Positions 2,933-46,692 of a DNA stretch of 64,000 nt are shown here, in pieces. The notes below the pieces were generated by a model that saw nothing but the letters and a program-made list of their open reading frames with translations, was not told the DNA's origin and ran no database searches. The DNA comes from a virus, in the IMG/VR virus record IMGVR_UViG_3300030328_002066, positions 1 through 64,000 of that record, one strand, 5' to 3'. The position numbers and the translations under genes were made by a program. The number at the start of each line of letters is the position of its first letter. The stretch's first letter is position 1.

Positions 2933-4387
2933 ATGATGATTCTGAACCAACATAGCTGCATTGCTTACACCCGTTTTATCAACGAAGACTTTGAAACAGG
3001 GTTTGAAGACGACGGTAGAATCTATAGCAAGGCTCTTCCTTCAAACTCTCCTGTAATTCCTGGGTCAAACCGACCCATGATTTCTCGATCTCCTTACGCT
3101 CCTTCCGAAGACTCTCCACACTATGAGTGTCTTAAGAAACTTTCAAACCAAGGTTTCAGAGTTTCTCCGCTGTTTGTCGATTACGTTGCAAGCGTCTTTC
3201 CAAAGGTCTGCGCTGAAAGACAACTATGGCTTGAAGCAATTGAGCGTACCTTTCTCGGACTTTGGAGAACCAAAAACAAGGTTATCTACACAGATGTCTT
3301 TTATGACTGGAGAGGCCGCGTTTATCAGCAGTCTGGAGAATGGGGATCTCTTCAGAATAACCGTTTGAGCCGAGCCGCTCTTTCTTCTCCTGAAAGATAC
3401 AAAGTCACTGTAAAGGGCTTTGAATACATGAAGAAGATTTTTAAGCATGAAGGCTGGCCTTGCACAACTGAAGAAGCAAATCATTTCTTGATGAATCCAG
3501 AATTTGACGGCAACGGCGCACTTGATTGGATGGCCGTTCGAGCTGCTTTGACTATCCTGGAAATCAACAAAGATGGCACTACTGATTTCTTGATCGAACA
3601 GGATGCAACCTGTTCTGGATTTCAGCATATGGCTCTTCTTATGAAAGATTTCGAGCTTGCGAAGACTGTAAACGCAATTTACTCCTCAACTAGAGGAGAT
3701 CTTTACATGCTTGTTGCAAAGCTTGGTAAGATTGCTGAACTTCTGTTCAAAGGCAATGCCAAAAAGGCTAGACAGTTTGCAAAGGTTATTGTGATGCTTA
3801 CTGGATATGGGTCTGGAGCCGCTGGTATCGCTTGTCGTTACTGGACAGATGCAGGCGGAAGTGGTGAAACCGATGAAGATGGTCTTCTCATCCCTGATGA
3901 CGAAAGTACAATCTTCCTTGGAGAAAAAGAATTCACCTACACAGAACTCAAAGCCTTTGTAAAAGAGCGTCAAGAAATTCTGTTGGAAAAGTTTCCGAGT
4001 ATCAAAACACTTCGACAAAAGTGTATTGAATACTATTCTGAATGTATGAGTGCTGATCCTGGAACTTTCTTGTGGACTACTCCAGACGGTTTCCAAGCTC
4101 TTCGAATCATTACTCAAACAGAACAAGACGCAAATTGCGTAGGCGCTGCTGGAGCAATGCCAAACCTTATCCACTCCCTTGACGCTGCCATTATCAGATA
4201 CGTTATCTTGAACTGGCACAAAACCCTGGGAGTCGTTCACGATGCTTTCTTCACAACTATCAACGATGCTCTTGAACTTCGTGAAGTCGTGAGAAGAGGC
4301 TACAAGGAAATTCACTCAAACCTTGGTGAATTCCCTGTTAACAAGCCTGGACCAATCCCTGAAATGGGTCTTTGCATCGGAATCTAA
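2933..4387 (+). CDS. short T7-type single-subunit RNA polymerase (484 aa)
   Basis: It contains the catalytic core of T7-family RNA polymerases. DWRGR is at residues 125-129, and motif A QDATCSG has the metal-binding Asp 224. Motif B has R280, K284 and Y292 in RQFAKVIVMLTGYGSG. MPNLIHSLDA starts near 409, and motif C HDAF has D437. At 484 aa against 883 in T7 it lacks nearly all of the N-terminal domain that binds the upstream promoter and the nascent RNA. The catalytic-only subunit of phage N4 RNA polymerase II is the nearest known parallel, but no N4-like partner gene is visible. ATG 2933 follows AGGAAACAAA. It is flanked by family-A motifs (2444, 4502) and closed by a terminator. All catalytic residues are present, so I expect it to be active, perhaps with a partner for promoter recognition. 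Confidence 0.85.
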   Translation: MMILNQHSCIAYTRFINEDFETGFEDDGRIYSKALPSNSPVIPGSNRPMISRSPYAPSEDSPHYECLKKLSNQGFRVSPLFVDYVASVFPKVCAERQLWLEAIERTFLGLWRTKNKVIYTDVFYDWRGRVYQQSGEWGSLQNNRLSRAALSSPERYKVTVKGFEYMKKIFKHEGWPCTTEEANHFLMNPEFDGNGALDWMAVRAALTILEINKDGTTDFLIEQDATCSGFQHMALLMKDFELAKTVNAIYSSTRGDLYMLVAKLGKIAELLFKGNAKKARQFAKVIVMLTGYGSGAAGIACRYWTDAGGSGETDEDGLLIPDDESTIFLGEKEFTYTELKAFVKERQEILLEKFPSIKTLRQKCIEYYSECMSADPGTFLWTTPDGFQALRIITQTEQDANCVGAAGAMPNLIHSLDAAIIRYVILNWHKTLGVVHDAFFTTINDALELREVVRRGYKEIHSNLGEFPVNKPGPIPEMGLCIGI

Positions 4388-7102: not shown

Positions 7103-7319
7103 TAGAGTTGACCGCATAACGATTTGGGATGGAATTATTCACGCTAATACTTGGAGTTGTGGGTGTTGTTCTGATACTCTTTCAAGTCATGAAGATGAAT
7201 ATGGATATTCTGAAGAAATAAACACTCAGTTAGTTTCTGATTATATTACGAGAGAACTAAAACGTTTGTCAAAGCTGCTAGATCAGCTGAAAGAGCTAGA
7301 AGATAATGTACATGGCTGA
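7086..7319 (+). CDS. hypothetical protein with CGCC motif (77 aa)
   Basis: 77 aa, starting at ATG 7086 after AGAGGAGAGTACA, a strong ribosome-binding site that decides against the longer ORF start at 7002. The N-terminal half has a Cys cluster (WSCGCCSDTL) and the C-terminal half is a probable coiled coil (RELKRLSKLLDQLKELED). I do not recognise the family. The start overlaps the previous stop. Confidence 0.65.
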   Translation: MEQLLDRVDRITIWDGIIHANTWSCGCCSDTLSSHEDEYGYSEEINTQLVSDYITRELKRLSKLLDQLKELEDNVHG

Positions 7320-7518
7320 TAACAATAAGTCGGACGGGTTTTATGTAAATAACTCTACTGTTTTTATTAAGAAATCTCATGTTCCCTATCCTATGGGAAG
7401 CTTGAAACTTCGATATGAAATAGATCAACACAAGAACCGTCTTGCAGATGAACTTACCGCCTGGATTCAGCTAGGTAAGGAAAACGAAAGGGCTATTAAT
7501 GATTCTGAGAGAGACTGA
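7312..7518 (+). CDS. hypothetical protein (68 aa)
   Basis: A 68- to 70-aa soluble protein. ATG 7306 or 7312 are both possible; both lie inside the preceding gene's end and neither has a strong ribosome-binding site. The C-terminal half is charged and helical (LRYEIDQHKNRLADELTAWI). Its end overlaps the start of the ThyX gene by 20 bases. Function unknown. Confidence 0.55.
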   Translation: MADNNKSDGFYVNNSTVFIKKSHVPYPMGSLKLRYEIDQHKNRLADELTAWIQLGKENERAINDSERD

Positions 7519-8182
7519 CGGAAGATTTATCCAAGAATATGAGCCTGTTACTTTCATTGATAAAATGGGAGACGACTATGCTGTATGCAATGCCGCTCGT
7601 GTTTCATTCGATAAGGAAGCGGGGTCTTATACCCCAGAAGCTAACCAAAAGCTTCTTCATTACTTGGCAAATCATGATCATTGGTCCCCTTTTGCCCACG
7701 TACATTTCAAGTTTAAATTCCGAGCCCCTATCTTTATTGCTAGGCAGTTTGTCAAGCACCAAGTAGGATTTGCTTGGAACGAAGTAAGTCGCCGCTATGT
7801 ATCTGAAGATCCTATGTTCTGGATACCAGACGCTTGGAGAAAAAGACCTTCTAATATTAAGCAAGGTTCTACTGAAGAAAACGCGGTTGAAGTTAAAGAA
7901 GATTTACTAACCGAATACGTAAATCAAATGTACGAACACGCACAAGATTATCGTCTTATGATTAAACAAGGGGTTTGTCCTGAACAAGTCCGAGCTATCA
8001 TGCCCCAGGCTATGATGACTGAGTGGATTTGGACGGGATCTCTTCAAGCATGGTGGCGTTTCTTTGAACTAAGAAGCGACAAACATGCTCAAGCTGAGTG
8101 TTGGCCCTATGCCGATGCTGTTCAAACAGAAATTCTTAAACACTTTCCTATGTCTTGGAAAGCATTACAAGGAACTGACTAA
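7499..8182 (+). CDS. thyX: flavin-dependent thymidylate synthase ThyX
   Basis: It makes dTMP from dUMP using methylene-tetrahydrofolate, FAD and NADPH. The signature region RQFVKHQVGFAWNEVSRRY (residues about 82-100) is the ThyX motif with the conserved S-x-R-Y end, and the N-terminal ARVSFDKE and C-terminal WRFFELRSDKHAQAE blocks also match. At 227 aa it has the usual length. T7 has no thymidylate synthase; with deaminase, dUTPase, dNMP kinase and ribonucleotide reductase it completes a phage dTTP pathway. The ATG lies inside the end of the previous gene and the stop TAA overlaps the next ATG (TAATG). Confidence 0.92.
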   Translation: MILRETDGRFIQEYEPVTFIDKMGDDYAVCNAARVSFDKEAGSYTPEANQKLLHYLANHDHWSPFAHVHFKFKFRAPIFIARQFVKHQVGFAWNEVSRRYVSEDPMFWIPDAWRKRPSNIKQGSTEENAVEVKEDLLTEYVNQMYEHAQDYRLMIKQGVCPEQVRAIMPQAMMTEWIWTGSLQAWWRFFELRSDKHAQAECWPYADAVQTEILKHFPMSWKALQGTD

Positions 8183-8595
8183 TGCCTAACTGGTGCGAAA
8201 ACAGAGTAACTATTTCGTTTGATGTTATTGAAGATAAAAAGCTCTTCATTAACCGATGTCTTACAGAAGCTGAAGATGAACCCGGCACTTACTTTCTAGA
8301 TTTTCATAAGATCCGACCTTTGGGTTTGGGCGAAGATGAGAACGGTGATCCTAAATGGGATTATAATGTAGCTGTAGATCTTTGGGGAACTAAGTGGGAA
8401 ATCGGAGACACCGTAGTTGATCAAGTTTGGGTAGAAGATGACGAAGATCTCTGGCTCCAAATGTACTTTGAGACAGCTTGGTCTCCTCCAGAAGGAATCT
8501 ACAACGAGCTTAATGCTATGTTTGATGATGCTCACATCTCTTGGTTTTATGACGAGCCTGGTATGGAATTTGCTGGGTATCTAAATAACGAATAA
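8182..8595 (+). CDS. Api92/DUF1281-like ferredoxin-fold protein
   Basis: 137 aa beginning MPNWCENRVTISF, with YNVAVDLWGTKWEI and FETAWSPPEGI. These are the three conserved blocks of the Api92-like (DUF1281) family found in phages and plasmids, whose predicted fold is ferredoxin-like and whose role is unknown. It is strongly acidic. It starts on the stop of thyX (TAATG) and ends seven bases before the first tRNA, so the tRNAs are probably on the same transcript. Confidence 0.7.
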   Translation: MPNWCENRVTISFDVIEDKKLFINRCLTEAEDEPGTYFLDFHKIRPLGLGEDENGDPKWDYNVAVDLWGTKWEIGDTVVDQVWVEDDEDLWLQMYFETAWSPPEGIYNELNAMFDDAHISWFYDEPGMEFAGYLNNE

Positions 8596-9214: not shown

Positions 9215-9338
9215 TTACCAGCTTTCACTAAGCGTAAGAAACTGGACTAAAGTAGGCAAGCCCCGCCGATCAAAGAAAGGTAAGGGAAATGCTCCCTCAC
9301 GTACTTCTCGTTCGGGTAACGGAAAAAGGATTCGATAA
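9201..9338 (+). CDS. basic micro-protein (45 aa)
   Basis: A 45-aa very basic protein, MAKNSYQLSLSVRNWTKVGK then PRRSKKGKGN and an Arg/Ser-rich tail ending GKRIR. AAGGAACTAAATA precedes ATG 9201 at good spacing, and its stop overlaps the next start (TAATG at 9336-9340). It is below normal gene-calling length but fits the operon exactly. The charge suggests nucleic-acid binding; unknown otherwise. Confidence 0.7.
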   Translation: MAKNSYQLSLSVRNWTKVGKPRRSKKGKGNAPSRTSRSGNGKRIR

Positions 9339-9589
9339 TGAGCGTTTTTAGAGAGATTGAACACGAAGTAGAATGTTGGATAGCAGAATCTGGTCCTAGT
9401 TATTACGGAGCTGATAATAAAACTGAAGCGTGGGAAGATGAAATTGATAACTTTGTAAACGAAGTTGCAAGCGAAATTTACGAAGATCTTGATGCTATGA
9501 TTGACGATTGGTGTGAAAGACATCTTCGGGATCGTGTTAATACTTGGATAGATACCTTGCCTGAAAACGAGGAAGAAGATGAAACTTAA
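9338..9589 (+). CDS. acidic hypothetical protein (83 aa)
   Basis: A strongly acidic 83-aa helical protein (DEIDNFVNEVASEIYEDLDA in the middle, ending ENEEEDET). ATG 9338 overlaps the stop of the basic micro-protein; a basic and an acidic protein translated together could form a complex, which is inference. Its end overlaps the dockerin-like gene by 11 bases. Confidence 0.65.
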   Translation: MSVFREIEHEVECWIAESGPSYYGADNKTEAWEDEIDNFVNEVASEIYEDLDAMIDDWCERHLRDRVNTWIDTLPENEEEDET

Positions 9590-10172
9590 TAAGATACCTG
9601 TCTTTATTGTTTTATTTATAACATCTTGTTTGCTAGCCGATCAACTATGCGCTCCTCCTTTGCCTTTCTTTGAAGTAAACAGAGAAAGTCTAGGTAACGG
9701 GTGGGTTCATACTACTGGTGAAGTGGTAAGAGAAACAAGAAAAGTTGAAGTAAATTACATTGATAATAGAGAAGATCCAGGGTTGTTGTTTGACTCGCAG
9801 GGTTATGTAATTCTCACTAATCTTAGTGACTCTCGCTTTAGGCGAATCAAATACCGACATACTGTAGACTTACCAAAAGGTTCTTATATTGTACACCAAG
9901 AAAGAGATTGGTATCAAGTATGCGCTGAAGACGGAGAAGTAATTTTCTTTGTATCTAATCGCGTAGGCTCGTGGCCTATAACACACCACTGGGCTTATAG
10001 CGTAGAGATTAGTCCTTACGGCGATCTAAACGGAGATGGCTGTGTAGACGGATCTGATCTTGGTCTTGTTATGTCAGCGTGGGGTACAGACCTAGCTGAC
10101 TTTAATAATGATGGAATTACTAACGGTTTAGACGTTGGTATCTTTTTTGAAAACTGGACAGGAAATTGTTAA
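9579..10172 (+). CDS. secreted or lipid-anchored protein with type I dockerin-like repeats
   Basis: 197 aa. The N-terminus is an export signal (MKLNKIPVFIVLFITSCLLA); ITSC at residues 14-17 fits a lipobox, so lipid anchoring is possible. The C-terminal 45 residues hold two Ca-binding dockerin-like repeats, GDLNGDGCVDGSDLGLVMSA and ADFNNDGITNGLDVGIFFEN, each with the D-x-N-x-D-G loop. The form DLNGDGxVDGxDL...WG is characteristic of planctomycete secreted proteins. The middle region is not recognised. A dockerin on a phage protein is unusual: it may attach to host cell-surface partners or be a host gene captured by the phage. Confidence 0.75.
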   Translation: MKLNKIPVFIVLFITSCLLADQLCAPPLPFFEVNRESLGNGWVHTTGEVVRETRKVEVNYIDNREDPGLLFDSQGYVILTNLSDSRFRRIKYRHTVDLPKGSYIVHQERDWYQVCAEDGEVIFFVSNRVGSWPITHHWAYSVEISPYGDLNGDGCVDGSDLGLVMSAWGTDLADFNNDGITNGLDVGIFFENWTGNC

Positions 10173-10405
10173 TGGCTAAGCAACTTTATGATATTATTAT
10201 TGACGTATGTGAAACTACTTGGTCTACTGCTGAAGTCGTTGTTGAAGCTGAAAGCATGGAAGAAGCTATTGCTGAGTTTAAAGAAGATCCTTGGAACCAC
10301 GACTGGAGTAATTGGTCAATTCACGACAGCGAAGTTCAAGACTGGAGTGTTGATGAAGACGAAACCAAAAGAAGTAATCTTTGCCATCTTGACGAGGACG
10401 AATGA
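10172..10405 (+). CDS. acidic hypothetical protein (77 aa)
   Basis: 77 aa starting at ATG 10172, which overlaps the previous stop (TTAATGG) and has GGAAAT upstream. The first 45 residues (YDIIIDVCETTWSTAEVVVE, then AESMEEAIAEF) have the pattern of a small beta-alpha-beta domain often seen in phage acidic proteins; the tail is Asp/Glu/Trp-rich. No family recognised. Confidence 0.65.
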   Translation: MAKQLYDIIIDVCETTWSTAEVVVEAESMEEAIAEFKEDPWNHDWSNWSIHDSEVQDWSVDEDETKRSNLCHLDEDE

Positions 10406-10515
10406 AACTAAGAAGGTTATCGCTTTGGATTAAACGATGTAAGAAAAATCCTTACTATATCCTTGAAGTATTCGCAAGATATGATGATTGGAACAGACCC
10501 CGGCCTTTGCCCTGA
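10402..10515 (+). CDS. basic micro-protein (37 aa)
   Basis: MKLRRLSLWIKRCKKNPYYI followed by LEVFARYDDWNRPRPLP. ATG 10402 overlaps the previous stop (ATGA), with GACGAGGACGA upstream. The N-terminal half is a basic amphipathic helix. Its 3' end overlaps the tRNA-Arg gene by seven bases. The reading frame fills the gap exactly, which supports it. Confidence 0.5.
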   Translation: MKLRRLSLWIKRCKKNPYYILEVFARYDDWNRPRPLP

Positions 10516-10582
10516 TAGCTCAGCTGGATAGAGCAACGGTCTTCTAAACCGTAGGTCGCAGGTTCGAGTCCTGCTCGGGGTG
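10509..10582 (+). tRNA. tRNA-Arg (TCT)
   Basis: Acceptor GCCCTGA/TCGGGGT (two G-U pairs, including the first), D arm GCTC/GAGC, anticodon stem ACGGT/ACCGT with loop CTTCTAA (anticodon TCT), T arm GCAGG-TTCGAGT-CCTGC. It reads AGA. Confidence 0.88.
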
Positions 10583-10587
10583 CTTTT

Positions 10588-10673
10588 GGCTCTGTGGCGG
10601 AATTGGCATACGCATTAGACTTAAAATCTAACGCCCTTTAACGGGCTTGGGGGTTCGAGTCCCCCCGGAGCTA
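10588..10673 (+). tRNA. tRNA-Leu (TAA)
   Basis: A class II tRNA with a long variable arm (GCCC TTTAAC GGGC). Anticodon stem TTAGA/TCTAA with loop CTTAAAA (anticodon TAA), T arm GGGGG-TTCGAGT-CCCCC, acceptor GGCTCTG/CGGAGCT. It reads UUA. Confidence 0.88.
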
Positions 10674-10676
10674 TTA

Positions 10677-11228
10677 ATGAACAAAGAAAAAATATATAAT
10701 ATCATAGCTGAGTTTATACCTAAAGCTAAACACCTGGCTCGTTTTACTCCCGATTGGACAGACGAAGATAGGGTTACTATTCTTTGGGTATGGGCTGTAG
10801 AAAACTATGATCGCTATGACTCAACTAAAGGTAATCTAACACAGTGGCTTAAAGGCTGCTCTCGACGTATTATTGATGTATATCGAAAGGAAAAAGGATC
10901 TATGCGTGAACAGAGTTATCCAGAAATTTATGATGACAATGGAGAACTAATTGATTTTGCACAGACAATCCCAGACTACCATAATATACATCCTCGCTAT
11001 GACGAAAGAGTATGGGCTCTAGTTCAAGAAGCTCTTGAAAACCTGCCTCCGGACAGTCGATGGATTCTTGAGGCTGTAGCTAAAAGAGATAGTTATAAAG
11101 AATCTAAAGGAGCTGAAGATGCTTTAGCTTTTTCTTTAGGTATAACTAAAAATGTAATGAGACACCGTCGAATGCGGGCTAAAGAGTTTATACGTGAATA
11201 CGTAGAAAGATTTAAAAATGGATCTTAA
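10677..11228 (+). CDS. ECF-sigma-like protein
   Basis: 183 aa from ATG 10677, three bases after the tRNA; the longer ORF start lies inside the tRNA. WAVENYDRYDSTKGNLTQWL and the following KGCSRRIIDVYRKEKG (residues about 40-75) match sigma-70 region 2 (YDPxKGxFxxWL...RxxIDxxRR). The C-terminal part (residues about 125-175: ALENLPPDSRWILEAVAKRD, then LAFSLGITKNVMRHRRMRAK) fits region 4 with a helix-turn-helix. Such a protein could direct host RNA polymerase to phage or host promoters, which is unusual in a phage with its own polymerases. No strong ribosome-binding site is visible. Confidence 0.6.
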   Translation: MNKEKIYNIIAEFIPKAKHLARFTPDWTDEDRVTILWVWAVENYDRYDSTKGNLTQWLKGCSRRIIDVYRKEKGSMREQSYPEIYDDNGELIDFAQTIPDYHNIHPRYDERVWALVQEALENLPPDSRWILEAVAKRDSYKESKGAEDALAFSLGITKNVMRHRRMRAKEFIREYVERFKNGS

Positions 11229-11727
11229 ATATTTAAACAAAATGCATAAGAAACTTGCTAAGAGAGGCAATGCAAGTTCTCAAATCGTAGCCTCAATGGC
11301 TTTCTTAGGTAAGCCTATGTATGAATCCTTTGCATCTGGTTTGCTTAGCATGGGAAATATTCATGCTCCTATTGAAAAAACTTGTAGACTATTTAACAAC
11401 CCTAAGTGGCAAGAAGTCATTGATGACTTAGCTATTAGGGGTAAAAGAGTCCCTGGTTTTGGTTCGGCCTTTTGTAAACAAGAAGATCCTATTATTGAAG
11501 AAGCTTTGGGACACCTTCCTAGCGCTATTATTCAAAGAGTAGAGAAAATTACAGAAGCTGTTCAAGTCACTTTTAATCCTAACCTACACCCAAACGCAGC
11601 AATGGCAACAGCAGCCTATGCGTATGCTAATGATATTCCTCCTACCGAAGCTCAATTTCTGGTATTGCAAGGAAGATTGGGAGTATGGAAAGAAATCTAT
11701 ATAGCTAACAGAAAGGATGTACTATGA
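11218..11727 (+). CDS. citrate-synthase-fold-like protein (C-terminal part)
   Basis: 169 aa resembling the C-terminal, CoA-binding half of citrate synthase/citryl-CoA lyases. FASGLLSMGNIHAPIEKTCR corresponds to the block with the first active His, GKRVPGFGSAFCKQEDP to PGFGHPxYKxxDP, and NAAMATAAYAYANDI...FLVLQGRLGVWKEIY to the helix block near the active Asp. The second active His (PGFGH) is Ser here and the active Asp position is not Asp, so ordinary citrate synthesis is unlikely. I infer a CoA- or acyl-binding or regulatory role. The match is by eye from motif order only. It overlaps both neighbours by short coupling overlaps. Confidence 0.45.
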   Translation: MDLKYLNKMHKKLAKRGNASSQIVASMAFLGKPMYESFASGLLSMGNIHAPIEKTCRLFNNPKWQEVIDDLAIRGKRVPGFGSAFCKQEDPIIEEALGHLPSAIIQRVEKITEAVQVTFNPNLHPNAAMATAAYAYANDIPPTEAQFLVLQGRLGVWKEIYIANRKDVL

Positions 11728-13624: not shown

Positions 13625-16060
13625 ATGAATAGATGGAATTCTTTAAGTGACCAGAACAAGTCAACTAGATTTACTTATCAGCATCATATTGAAGAAACCC
13701 TAACAGATCAATCCTTAAACAAGTATTGGAAGGGTTATGATAACTGTAAAACAGAGTGTGCAGCAGAGCAAGACTTAATCCAACAGTTTATTAAAGACTG
13801 TACGTCTTCTTTTGAAATGGTTAAAGAAGAAATAAGCAAAGACGGTCGTATGCGCGAATGGGCTCCGGCCCTATTTCTTATTCCTTCTGAAACTTTAGCT
13901 GCTATTGTTATTTCACAGCTTATTGAAGATCTTGTCGATAGCCGAGATATTAGAAAGAAACTCTATTCTAACGGAGTGGATAACTTTTATTCTGTAGCTT
14001 ATCGTGTAGGCAAAGAAGCTAAACTTATTGCGTCTTTTAAACACGCCAAGTTAAATAACTCAGAAGAATACCAATACGTTAACAAATATGTTAAACGTTG
14101 GGATAAGAAAAGATGTATGCGTTTTACAAAAAGATGTGATTCAATTCAATCTTGGAGTAAAAAACAAACGTTATTTCTAGGAACCTGTCTTCTTAACGTA
14201 GCCAAAGCTCACAATGTAATCGAAATTACAAAGCGAAGCTACCGAAAGAATAATAAAACACGAAGCTATAACGAAGTCAGCATGGACCCAAACATCATGC
14301 TCGAACTTATTAGGCGACATGATTATTATCAATTCCTTCGTATTTTATACAGGCCAATGTTAGTACCTCCTATTCCTCATTCCGAGGAAATACCTGGCGG
14401 TTGTCTAATGTTAGATCGTAGAAAACCAACGGTGGGGGGAATAAGCAAATCAAGTGAACAAAGCCTTGAGGCTTTAAATGCTTTGCAAACAACAGAATGG
14501 TCTGTTAACGAACAAGTTTTAGAGGTAATGAATACCATTTACCAACAAAACAGCACCAACTGTAACATGCCCGCTTATAATTTTGAACAGTTTACTTTTC
14601 TTAGGCCTTTTCCTGAGTCTGGTGAACCAGAAGAAAAACTAGCGTGGAAAAAAGAAAAAGAAGAGCAATATAGTCTATGGTACAAAGAGGTTCAAAAACG
14701 AGCCCAAATGGAAATTAGACTTAACTTAGCTAAAAAGTTAGTTTCTGCTCAATTCTTTTATCATGCTTACACAATGGATTTTCGTGGCAGAGCTTATACA
14801 GTTACTGAAATGCTAAGTCCTCAAAGCGGTGACTTTGATAAGGGACTGCTTCAGTTTGCCTTAAAAGTAAAAGTGACAAAAGAGGGCATGTACTGGTTAA
14901 TGGTGCATGTAGCTAATTGTTTTGATGGAGTCGATTTTGGTTCTGGCCCCGCCAGTGACAAGGTCTCTTTTGACGACCGTGTCTTGTGGGTCAAAAACCA
15001 TATCGACGACATCAGAGCAATTGCTAAAGATCCTTATAGTAATGATATTTGGATGGATAACGAAACTACTAAGAAAAATCCTAGCTTTCAAAGATTGGCT
15101 TCAGCCTTTGGTTTAGTCCAAGCTTTAGATACAGGTTATTCTCAGTTGCCCGTCCAATTAGATGGGTCTTGTAATGGTAGCCAGCATTGGTCTGCTATTA
15201 TGAGAGATAAAGAACTTGCCTTACAAGTAAACGTAGCTCCTACTGAAGTACCTGGTGATTTATACCAGTTAGTAGCTGATGTAGCTACTAATGTTTGTAG
15301 TCAAGGTCTAACCAAATGGCAGGAAATTTTCTACGAGCATTGGGAAAAAAACATACCTCGTAAAGTAGTTAAACGTTCTACAATGTGTGATGCTTACGGT
15401 ATTACAGATCATGGAATTCGTCGTTACTGTAGAGAAGAAGGTCATCTTAATTGGATTGAAGATCCTACTGATAAAACACAAGCTGTTAACGAGCTTTCTT
15501 TAATCATTAGAAACTCTTTAGACGGTGCGCTTAGTTCTGCTAATGAAGGTAAGATTTTTCTTCAAGACCTTACTGAGTTATGTGCCGCTCATGGAAAACA
15601 TGCTTCTTGGTATACACCAACTGGTTTTAAAGTAATCAATCGATATACACAAGAGAGAGTGAAAGTTCTTGATACTCACTTATATAGAAATTCAAGGCTT
15701 CAGCTTAGTATTGTAGAAGATACCAAAAACCCTTCTCCAATCATGGCTATTCAAGCAATTCCTCCAAATTATATTCATAGTATTGACGCTGCTCATATGG
15801 TGTTAACTATACTTAGAATGTTGATTTATAATATACCTAGTTTTTCTATGGTACATGATTCATTTGGTTGCCATTGCTCTTACGTACCTTTAATGAGAAA
15901 GTCTTTAATAGAAACATTTTATGAGATACACAAAGAACCCTTACTCGAAAAATTCAAAAATGACATCGAAAATGTCGTCGGTCCCGTTGGGAGAAAGCTC
16001 CCCAATCCAGGATCATTCAACATCCAAGATGTTAGAAACTCCGAATACCTTTTCGGATAA
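13625..16060 (+). CDS. full-length T7-type DNA-directed RNA polymerase (811 aa)
   Basis: A single-subunit phage RNA polymerase. MDFRGRAYTV has D385; LDGSCNGSQHWSA is motif A with Asp 513. RKVVKRSTMCDAYG is motif B with K583, R584 and Y591; AIPPNYIHSIDAAH follows, and MVHDSFGCH is motif C with D745. The N-terminal 370 residues correspond to the promoter-binding and RNA-exit domain of T7 polymerase (883 aa). All catalytic residues are present. TTTAAGGAGAGCT precedes ATG 13625, and the family-B element is just upstream. It lies at the head of the replication module, unlike in T7, and is the second such polymerase in the window. Confidence 0.93.
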   Translation: MNRWNSLSDQNKSTRFTYQHHIEETLTDQSLNKYWKGYDNCKTECAAEQDLIQQFIKDCTSSFEMVKEEISKDGRMREWAPALFLIPSETLAAIVISQLIEDLVDSRDIRKKLYSNGVDNFYSVAYRVGKEAKLIASFKHAKLNNSEEYQYVNKYVKRWDKKRCMRFTKRCDSIQSWSKKQTLFLGTCLLNVAKAHNVIEITKRSYRKNNKTRSYNEVSMDPNIMLELIRRHDYYQFLRILYRPMLVPPIPHSEEIPGGCLMLDRRKPTVGGISKSSEQSLEALNALQTTEWSVNEQVLEVMNTIYQQNSTNCNMPAYNFEQFTFLRPFPESGEPEEKLAWKKEKEEQYSLWYKEVQKRAQMEIRLNLAKKLVSAQFFYHAYTMDFRGRAYTVTEMLSPQSGDFDKGLLQFALKVKVTKEGMYWLMVHVANCFDGVDFGSGPASDKVSFDDRVLWVKNHIDDIRAIAKDPYSNDIWMDNETTKKNPSFQRLASAFGLVQALDTGYSQLPVQLDGSCNGSQHWSAIMRDKELALQVNVAPTEVPGDLYQLVADVATNVCSQGLTKWQEIFYEHWEKNIPRKVVKRSTMCDAYGITDHGIRRYCREEGHLNWIEDPTDKTQAVNELSLIIRNSLDGALSSANEGKIFLQDLTELCAAHGKHASWYTPTGFKVINRYTQERVKVLDTHLYRNSRLQLSIVEDTKNPSPIMAIQAIPPNYIHSIDAAHMVLTILRMLIYNIPSFSMVHDSFGCHCSYVPLMRKSLIETFYEIHKEPLLEKFKNDIENVVGPVGRKLPNPGSFNIQDVRNSEYLFG

Positions 16061-24639: not shown

Positions 24640-24791
24640 TGATAGGATTAGGAGATATAATCTTTTATATTACTAAATTTACAGGCATAGCCTGGTTAAC
24701 TCATAAATTACATATGTTAACTGGGTTTGAGTGCAACTGTATGAAAAGACGTAAGTACTTAAACAAATTCGCAATTAAATGGCGGACGTAA
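24639..24791 (+). CDS. small CxC-motif protein (50 aa)
   Basis: ATG 24639 overlaps the previous stop (TTAATGA). The protein has an N-terminal hydrophobic stretch (MIGLGDIIFYITKFTGIAWL) and then ECNCMKRRKYLNKF. The pattern C-x-C-x-x-(K/R)R-x-x-LN is common in short proteins of phages of many groups, often near nucleotide or lysis genes, with unknown role. Its end overlaps the next gene. Confidence 0.6.
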   Translation: MIGLGDIIFYITKFTGIAWLTHKLHMLTGFECNCMKRRKYLNKFAIKWRT

Positions 24792-25216
24792 CTCTTACTC
24801 TTTGGAAAGATTCCAGTACTGGTTGGAGATCTCGTTGGATAAGATTAGGGACTGGATCGTCATTAACTCACTGTACAGTTACAATAGGAGATAGAACTCT
24901 TCACATGGACCCTAAAGTCCAAGGTTGGTTTCGTACAGATCTTTTATTTAGGACGTATAAAAGAACCTATTCTCATACACCAGAAAATAAAATTTATATT
25001 GGCTCAGTGGAAAATCCAGTCTATAAAAAACTGAAGAAACCAAAAAGTGGGGCTACTTGGTCCGTTATAAGATGGAAATACTTATACGGACCTCGTCCCT
25101 ACTGTTGCAGCGTCGGTTGTATAGACGCTCTTAGAGACAACGGTTTTTATTGCCCTGAGCTTATTGTCCCAGAAAAATTAATAGGATACTTTAAACATGC
25201 TTATAATAGGCCTTAG
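24779..25216 (+). CDS. hypothetical protein, possibly a permuted papain-fold enzyme
   Basis: 145 aa. LTHCTVTIGDRTLHM (residues 29-43) and YCCSVGCIDALRDNGF (residues about 108-123) could be the His and Cys blocks of a circularly permuted NlpC/P60-type domain, but this is weak and I would not rely on it. It is basic and soluble. Its start overlaps the previous gene and its end overlaps the dNMP kinase start by 20 bases. Confidence 0.6.
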   Translation: MADVTLTLWKDSSTGWRSRWIRLGTGSSLTHCTVTIGDRTLHMDPKVQGWFRTDLLFRTYKRTYSHTPENKIYIGSVENPVYKKLKKPKSGATWSVIRWKYLYGPRPYCCSVGCIDALRDNGFYCPELIVPEKLIGYFKHAYNRP

Positions 25217-46017: not shown

Positions 46018-46692
46018 TTGTCCGATAGATGTCCTTATTGTTCAGATTACGAAAGTATAAAAGAGGAACTAAAAGAGACAAAACGGAACGCAGAAAAGGT
46101 AGTAAAAGACTCCCTTGAAAACTGCGAACGCGAAAGAAGAAAGATTAAAAAGCAGTTAATGAGTATAGGTATTGTTGTTGTTGTAGCAGGGACGCTACTT
46201 GGTAAAGAGTTTGTGGATAAAGTAGCCGAATATTTAGAGAGTTTTAATTCTGTTAAGGATGCTGGATCTGATTTGATTTCAGAAGCTTTACCTAAAAACT
46301 CTAAGAATTCTTCTATACCAGGACCTTCTTTTGCCGCTAAGCCAAACGGATTTACTATAGATAATTACCACGTTTTAAAATCTACAAACATACAGCTTTA
46401 CCAAGCAGATTTAGATTTAATGTCAAATAATATGTCAATCGTCGATATAGGTTTTGACGCTTCTAGTTTTTTGGATGTTTCTACTAGACCAGATTCGCCT
46501 ATAAAACCATTTTATACCGACTGGTCATATTTTATGTTAGACGAAAAACCCAAACAAATATTACCTCAAGGTCCTTTTCAATTTGAAGGTCCTTTAGACA
46601 TAGAATTATATAATACTTCTTCCGTTCCCGGGCCTGGGGTGTTAATGTGCTTTGCACTAGGGTTACTTTTTTATAAAAGAAAACAACGATGA
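46018..46692 (+). CDS. membrane protein with PEP-CTERM-like tail
   Basis: 224 aa starting with TTG at 46018, supported by a very strong AGGAGG eight bases upstream. It has an N-terminal CPYC pair (residues 5-8), a charged coiled coil, a transmembrane segment (SIGIVVVVAGTLLGKEFV, residues about 49-66), an exported domain, and a C-terminus VPGPGVLMCFALGLLFYKRK. PGP, then a hydrophobic span, then basic residues, is the PEP-CTERM-type sorting signal abundant in planctomycetes. In a phage it suggests use of the host exosortase-type sorting system to place the protein at the cell surface (inference), or capture of a host gene. Confidence 0.65.
   Translation: MSDRCPYCSDYESIKEELKETKRNAEKVVKDSLENCERERRKIKKQLMSIGIVVVVAGTLLGKEFVDKVAEYLESFNSVKDAGSDLISEALPKNSKNSSIPGPSFAAKPNGFTIDNYHVLKSTNIQLYQADLDLMSNNMSIVDIGFDASSFLDVSTRPDSPIKPFYTDWSYFMLDEKPKQILPQGPFQFEGPLDIELYNTSSVPGPGVLMCFALGLLFYKRKQR

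Follow-up and report, generated by a model that had tools for sequence, protein, structure and literature searches.

For freshwater Phycisphaerae, a surface complex built from cohesins and dockerins has been put forward under the name 'planctosome' and is itself hypothetical (PMC6461901), and phage surface lipoproteins with an exclusion function, such as Ltp, are known (PMC3952083). Some planctomycetes have dockerin tails in abundance, with a role that is unproven. In the literature searched, we found no account of phages encoding dockerin or cohesin proteins of the kind described below. We analysed a 64,000-nt stretch (the window) of a 69,509-base virus record, IMGVR_UViG_3300030328_002066, which contains a gene for a small dockerin protein with a predicted export signal. 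Judged from sequence, such an exported dockerin, in a phage group with cohesin genes as well, represents a new form within a known kind of phage surface accessory protein.

The virus looks like a T7-like podovirus of the lytic type, with a T7-type RNA polymerase, ThyX, a head-tail connector, a nozzle protein and a T7-type terminase recognized by profile search. Its primase-helicase showed at most 39% identity to isolates among the matches listed and up to 83% to metagenomic contigs; by this comparison, the virus belongs to an undescribed T7-like lineage. Relatives were located with ThyX and primase queries, and the most syntenic of them, L003, shared about 40–77% identity across most of the larger early-region genes and had a similar tRNA block. 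Several genes outside the dockerin locus were also noted. Two T7-type RNA polymerase genes are present, a short one lacking the N-terminal domain (2933–4387, +, 484 aa; 60% identity in L003) and a full one (13625–16060, +, 811 aa). The 169-aa product of 11218–11727 (+) resembled the citrate synthase C-terminal domain (PF00285, 23.5 bits, cut-off 27); the gene was kept in L003 (40%), had a similar ORF by eye in L082 (7785–8345), and such a half-size citrate-synthase-like gene is present in T7-like phages. A sigma-70 region 2-like protein (PF04542, 19.2 bits, cut-off 24) is encoded at 10647–11228 (+), and since the listed TTG start of this ORF falls inside the tRNA-Leu gene, translation probably begins instead at the ATG of MNKEK. 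The 145-aa product of 24779–25216 (+) carried a THC...CC pattern resembling, by eye, permuted-papain (NlpC/P60-like) proteins, and both L005 and L063 have a similar ORF after their DNA polymerase. Ahead of the terminase gene, a 224-aa protein (46018–46692, +) contained a hydrophobic stretch, and its C-terminus, VPGPGVLMCFALGLLFYKRKQR, resembled a PEP-CTERM sorting tail; no profile supported this tail, and the protein is possibly another envelope signal in the style of the host, or else a spanin.

The dockerin gene itself (9579..10172, +, 197 aa by the ORF list and translation) lies about 20 kb ahead of the structural genes, in the pre-structural half of the genome, and may be expressed early. 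It starts with an ATG placed 5 nt downstream of the AGGA within a Shine-Dalgarno-like GAGGAAG read from the sequence (9569..9575, +). This start lies inside the end of a small acidic 83-aa ORF found in the ORF list (9338..9589, +), and the ATG of the next small ORF (10172..10405, +, 77 aa from ATG), which is 48% identical to an ORF of the relative L082, is located at the stop codon of the dockerin gene. Owing to the overlap with the preceding stop and the abutting ATG, the gene looks like a translationally coupled member of an operon of small genes. Its GC3 of 0.28 is phage-like, within the 0.25–0.36 of its neighbours. Downstream lie a tRNA-Arg(tct) gene (10509..10583, +) and, in the same cluster, a tRNA-Leu(taa) gene (10587..10674, +); a tRNA-Leu gene also adjoins a dockerin gene in the related contig L068. 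An o-spanin reading of the dockerin gene was rejected, the protein being too large and the gene far from the lysis/terminase region.

The product begins with a hydrophobic N-terminus (residues 1–17, MKLNKIPVFIVLFITSC; 9579..9629, +) that ends in a lipobox, ITSC, with Cys17 encoded at 9627–9629. The lipobox rule applied, of the PROSITE PS51257 type, looks for a Cys at positions 15–35, an uncharged h-region and K/R within the first 7 residues. Of the window's ORFs with 60 aa or more, 147 in all, only the dockerin protein carried such a cysteine, at position 17, in keeping with the signal sequence and possible lipobox proposed in the first-pass annotation, and the protein is probably exported as a lipoprotein lipidated at Cys17.

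At the other end of the protein (residues 149–197), the PF00404 profile and a loop motif located two calcium loops, DLNGDGCVDGSD (residues 149–160; 10023..10058, +) and DFNNDGITNGLD (residues 174–185; 10098..10133, +), each followed by a helix, predicted from homology, and by a hydrophobic stretch ending in W, and the second also by a C-terminal TGNC; such helices are visible in the structure model of a relative. Both loops are complete, with ligand positions 1, 3, 5, 9 and 12 intact, and are spaced 25 residues apart. Nothing else in the six frames of the window matched D-x-[DN]-x-[DN]-G-x-x-[DNS]-x-x-D, for which shuffled proteomes gave an expectation of 0.0165 single matches and 0 tandem pairs, and 200,000 shuffles of the dockerin protein produced 0 loop pairs. 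The two dockerin-like calcium-binding repeats that had been claimed are thus two perfect loops that did not arise by chance, and they recur in related T7-like contigs. The type I profile search advised in the first-pass annotation supported the assignment in part: PF00404 was the best match, but the protein alone scored 20.0 bits (E = 7.8e-4) against a gathering cut-off of 22.9, and 23.3 bits were reached in a six-frame search that counts neighbours in frame. The NCBIfam GC-type dockerin model NF041540 matched to its last position with only 15.8 bits, below its cut-off of 29, which ruled out membership in that family. Since the single-protein scores are borderline, the dockerin identification leans on the relatives; on sequence comparison the C-terminal repeats are convincingly read as a dockerin type I pair, which would bind calcium and a cohesin.

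Between the export signal and the repeats lies an orphan domain of about 115 aa (residues about 25–145; 9651..10013, +) without a convincing match in Pfam, NCBIfam or PHROGs. Matches in 392 planctomycete genomes (best E 4e-4) fell on TonB-receptor-like, PAS-type and other proteins sharing one stretch and were attributed to chance. No homologue of the whole protein was found in viral contigs, and 41-bit tblastn matches in Pseudomonas phages, spanning two genes at 24% identity, were likewise judged to be chance. The single-sequence AlphaFold model of the dockerin protein (pLDDT 35) was unusable, and neither sequence nor model gave a hint of the function of the orphan domain.

Examination of related phages, also advised at the outset, gave a divided answer: the gene was not found in L003, and is therefore accessory, but dockerin domains occurred in four further related contigs (L068, L005, L063 and L055), and cohesins were found as well. 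L068 (primase 59% identical) encodes two dockerin proteins. The first combines a C-type-lectin-like domain (a weak match, E 0.035) with a dockerin scoring 25.9 bits against PF00404; the second joins an orphan domain to a dockerin scoring 32.7 bits (cut-off 22.9) that is 43% identical to the window repeats over 47 residues, and its gene stands directly ahead of tRNA-Arg(tct) and ThyX in a cluster like that of the window. Proteins with both a cohesin and a dockerin are encoded by L005 and L063, whose primase identity of about 60–62% places them in the same phage group as the window virus, and by L055, whereas L056 and L057 encode a cohesin alone. PF00404 scored above cut-off in L063 (25.4 bits), and the cohesin above its Pfam cut-off in L055 (25.6 bits). 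The model of the L005 cohesin-dockerin protein had a moderate mean pLDDT of 56, with about 76–87 over most of the dockerin; its best structural matches were clostridial cohesins, and the dockerin of 2y3n matched at TM 0.81 (target-normalised) with an rmsd of 0.6. No viral structure in BFVD matched at E up to 0.001, and PHROGs gave no convincing match to the cohesin/dockerin proteins of the relatives. The L055 protein, which has no export signal, adjoins tail-like genes and could be virion-borne. A homologue of the cohesin-dockerin protein in Phycisphaerales bacterium bin220 has an export signal, whereas the phage versions appear to be without one. No cohesin was found in the window virus record, so the binding partner of its dockerin would be that of the host.

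A consensus dockerin query found no comparable protein among 50,697 phage records; in viral contigs, a consensus query mostly brought up long proteins with dockerin-like repeats from contigs unrelated to the window virus. In four of these (L177, 6510–9245; L178, 6513–9326; L180, 4146–8162; L181, 7011–8669) the repeats lay within, or closed, long proteins of structural appearance, one of them collagen-like; these are possible virion proteins. A contig from a viral collection, L176, encodes a metalloprotease of the metzincin type that is exported and has a dockerin-like region (7122–8249); the contig could be a misassigned planctomycete fragment.

The host was approached from two sides. The closest cellular dockerins were planctomycete, the top one at 54% identity and 59 bits, and the loop spacing of 25 falls in the planctomycete range (25–32 in 22 of 23 pairs) rather than that of Firmicutes (32–38 in 17 of 18). 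The tRNA-Arg gene had best matches of 93–95% identity, one over 63/63 bases, among 397 genomes of one planctomycete class that includes Phycisphaerales bacterium SpSt-1223; in the phage and plasmid collections, which contain few chromosomes and are thus limited controls, the best-ranked phage record reached 88% (92 bits versus 118) and the plasmid records listed up to 90 bits. All 12 genomes with the best tRNA-Arg match had 25–103 copies of GC-type dockerins, which were absent from 18 of 20 genomes with a poor match (1 and 3 copies in the other two). Because both traits track phylogeny, and because the two sets were picked as extremes from non-independent genomes of the same class, this agreement is concordance and not proof. 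Seven planctomycete genomes reached through the dockerin itself contained 1–141 dockerin copies. No CRISPR spacers were seen when the first 20 kb were compared with the 397 genomes, the matches listed being tRNA genes. The planctomycete style and host that had been claimed thus agree both with the nearest dockerins and, independently, with the tRNA-Arg gene, which indicates dockerin-rich planctomycetes; by these sequence comparisons, the host is most likely a Phycisphaerae-like, dockerin-rich planctomycete.

We propose, with no more than an even degree of confidence, that the dockerin gene is an accessory gene whose exported, probably lipidated product joins the dockerin-dependent surface layer of the host, most plausibly so as to change the infected cell's surface. 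The product would be exported and probably lipid-anchored through Cys17; its calcium-loaded dockerin pair would give it a place in that layer, either through a host cohesin or through the host's dockerin retention route. The orphan domain would thereby be placed outside the infected cell, the surface of which would be altered, above all by masking a receptor or by keeping the DNA of competing phages from entering (superinfection exclusion). A surface location is predicted, and the protein may also re-route host complexes, as had been suggested; the anatomy of the protein fits best with surface modification or exclusion. By analogy with known lipoproteins, superinfection exclusion is tentatively the likeliest purpose, with competition against host dockerins and a passenger gene ranked below it. 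Against the proposal stand the L003 genome without the gene, the sub-threshold PF00404 score of the single protein, and the lack of a cohesin in the virus; moreover, it is temperate phages that carry exclusion lipoproteins of the Ltp kind, whereas the window virus looks lytic.

An exported dockerin could instead act as a competitive decoy, saturating host cohesins and stripping or replacing surface enzymes or adhesins so as to weaken the envelope or free the progeny. Host genomes of the matched kind have dozens of dockerin proteins, and L068 adds its C-type-lectin-like dockerin protein; still, the conserved combination of export signal and orphan domain would be superfluous for a decoy, and this reading appears unlikely. 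We consider it quite unlikely that the gene is a passenger, a captured fragment of a host surface protein gene with no selected role in infection: its accessory status and absence from L003, and the very high frequency of dockerin tails in such hosts, would fit, but the ORF is intact, coupled to its neighbours and phage-like in GC3, both loops are perfect, and several related phages keep dockerin genes in varied builds, one of them in the same gene cluster. A dockerin displayed on the particle as an adhesin, with host cohesins as receptors, is improbable: the signal-less L055 protein next to tail-like genes and the dockerin-like repeats in structural-looking proteins of unrelated phage contigs lend it some support, but the window protein carries an export signal and its gene is distant from the structural genes. 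The help in adsorption that had been suggested fared no better, since the export signal and a location outside the virion genes make such a role unlikely. Finally, it is very improbable that the repeats are another calcium-loop repeat of the FG-GAP, EF-hand or thrombospondin type, for despite the sub-threshold dockerin score and weak FG-GAP (E 0.037) and EF-hand (E 0.78) matches, the dockerin profile scored best, the two tandem C-terminal loop-helix units have a conserved W, the repeats are 43–54% identical to bona fide dockerins, and dockerins were the best PDB sequence matches.

Beyond the proposed joining of the host surface layer, the other dockerin and cohesin genes of related viruses suggest that these viruses use the host's surface docking code. 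More speculatively, and on balance doubtfully, viruses of Phycisphaerae-like planctomycetes may act on both sides of the cohesin-dockerin code, with exported dockerin proteins (the window gene and the lectin-like protein of L068) in the host surface layer, and signal-less cohesin or cohesin-dockerin proteins binding host dockerins from the virion or after lysis. It is equally doubtful, though conceivable, that these phage cohesin(-dockerin) proteins were stripped of the export signal seen in the host homologue. If true, the two-sided reading would amount to a modular docking code of the cellulosome type carried by viruses, serving exclusion, attachment or release. An exported phage dockerin together with the cohesins of the group suggests that the docking system faces outside and matters in infection; the gene offers a small, testable handle on the planctomycete docking system and helps to assign a host to an uncultured T7-like lineage.

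Among known systems, a cellulosome component was discarded, with no recognizable enzyme module in the protein and no cohesin in the phage genome. The window protein resembles the compact planctomycete form of dockerin type I (PF00404) in its two C-terminal DxNxDGxxDxxD loops with helices and its 54% identity to a planctomycete dockerin; it differs in being phage-encoded, in scoring below cut-off singly, and in a spacing of 25 instead of the 32–38 usual in Firmicutes. With GC-type dockerins (NF041540) it shares the C-terminal position and the planctomycete character, but not the score (15.8 bits, cut-off 29). With the 'planctosome' (PMC6461901) it shares the use of cohesin/dockerin modules for something other than cellulose degradation, in the group to which the host probably belongs; the 'planctosome', however, is a hypothetical host system, and neither a peptidase nor a scaffold module is present in the phage protein. 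Ltp-type exclusion lipoproteins (PMC3952083) are also small, phage-encoded, exported lipoproteins with a repeat region, lipidation being predicted here; they come from temperate phages of Gram-positive hosts with no dockerin reported, and no exclusion-lipoprotein family matched the dockerin protein in Pfam, NCBIfam and PHROG profile searches. The cohesin-dockerin proteins of L005, L063 and L055 end in a dockerin tail like that of the window protein, but in them a cohesin domain replaces the orphan domain, the export signal appears to be missing, and the genes occupy other genome positions.
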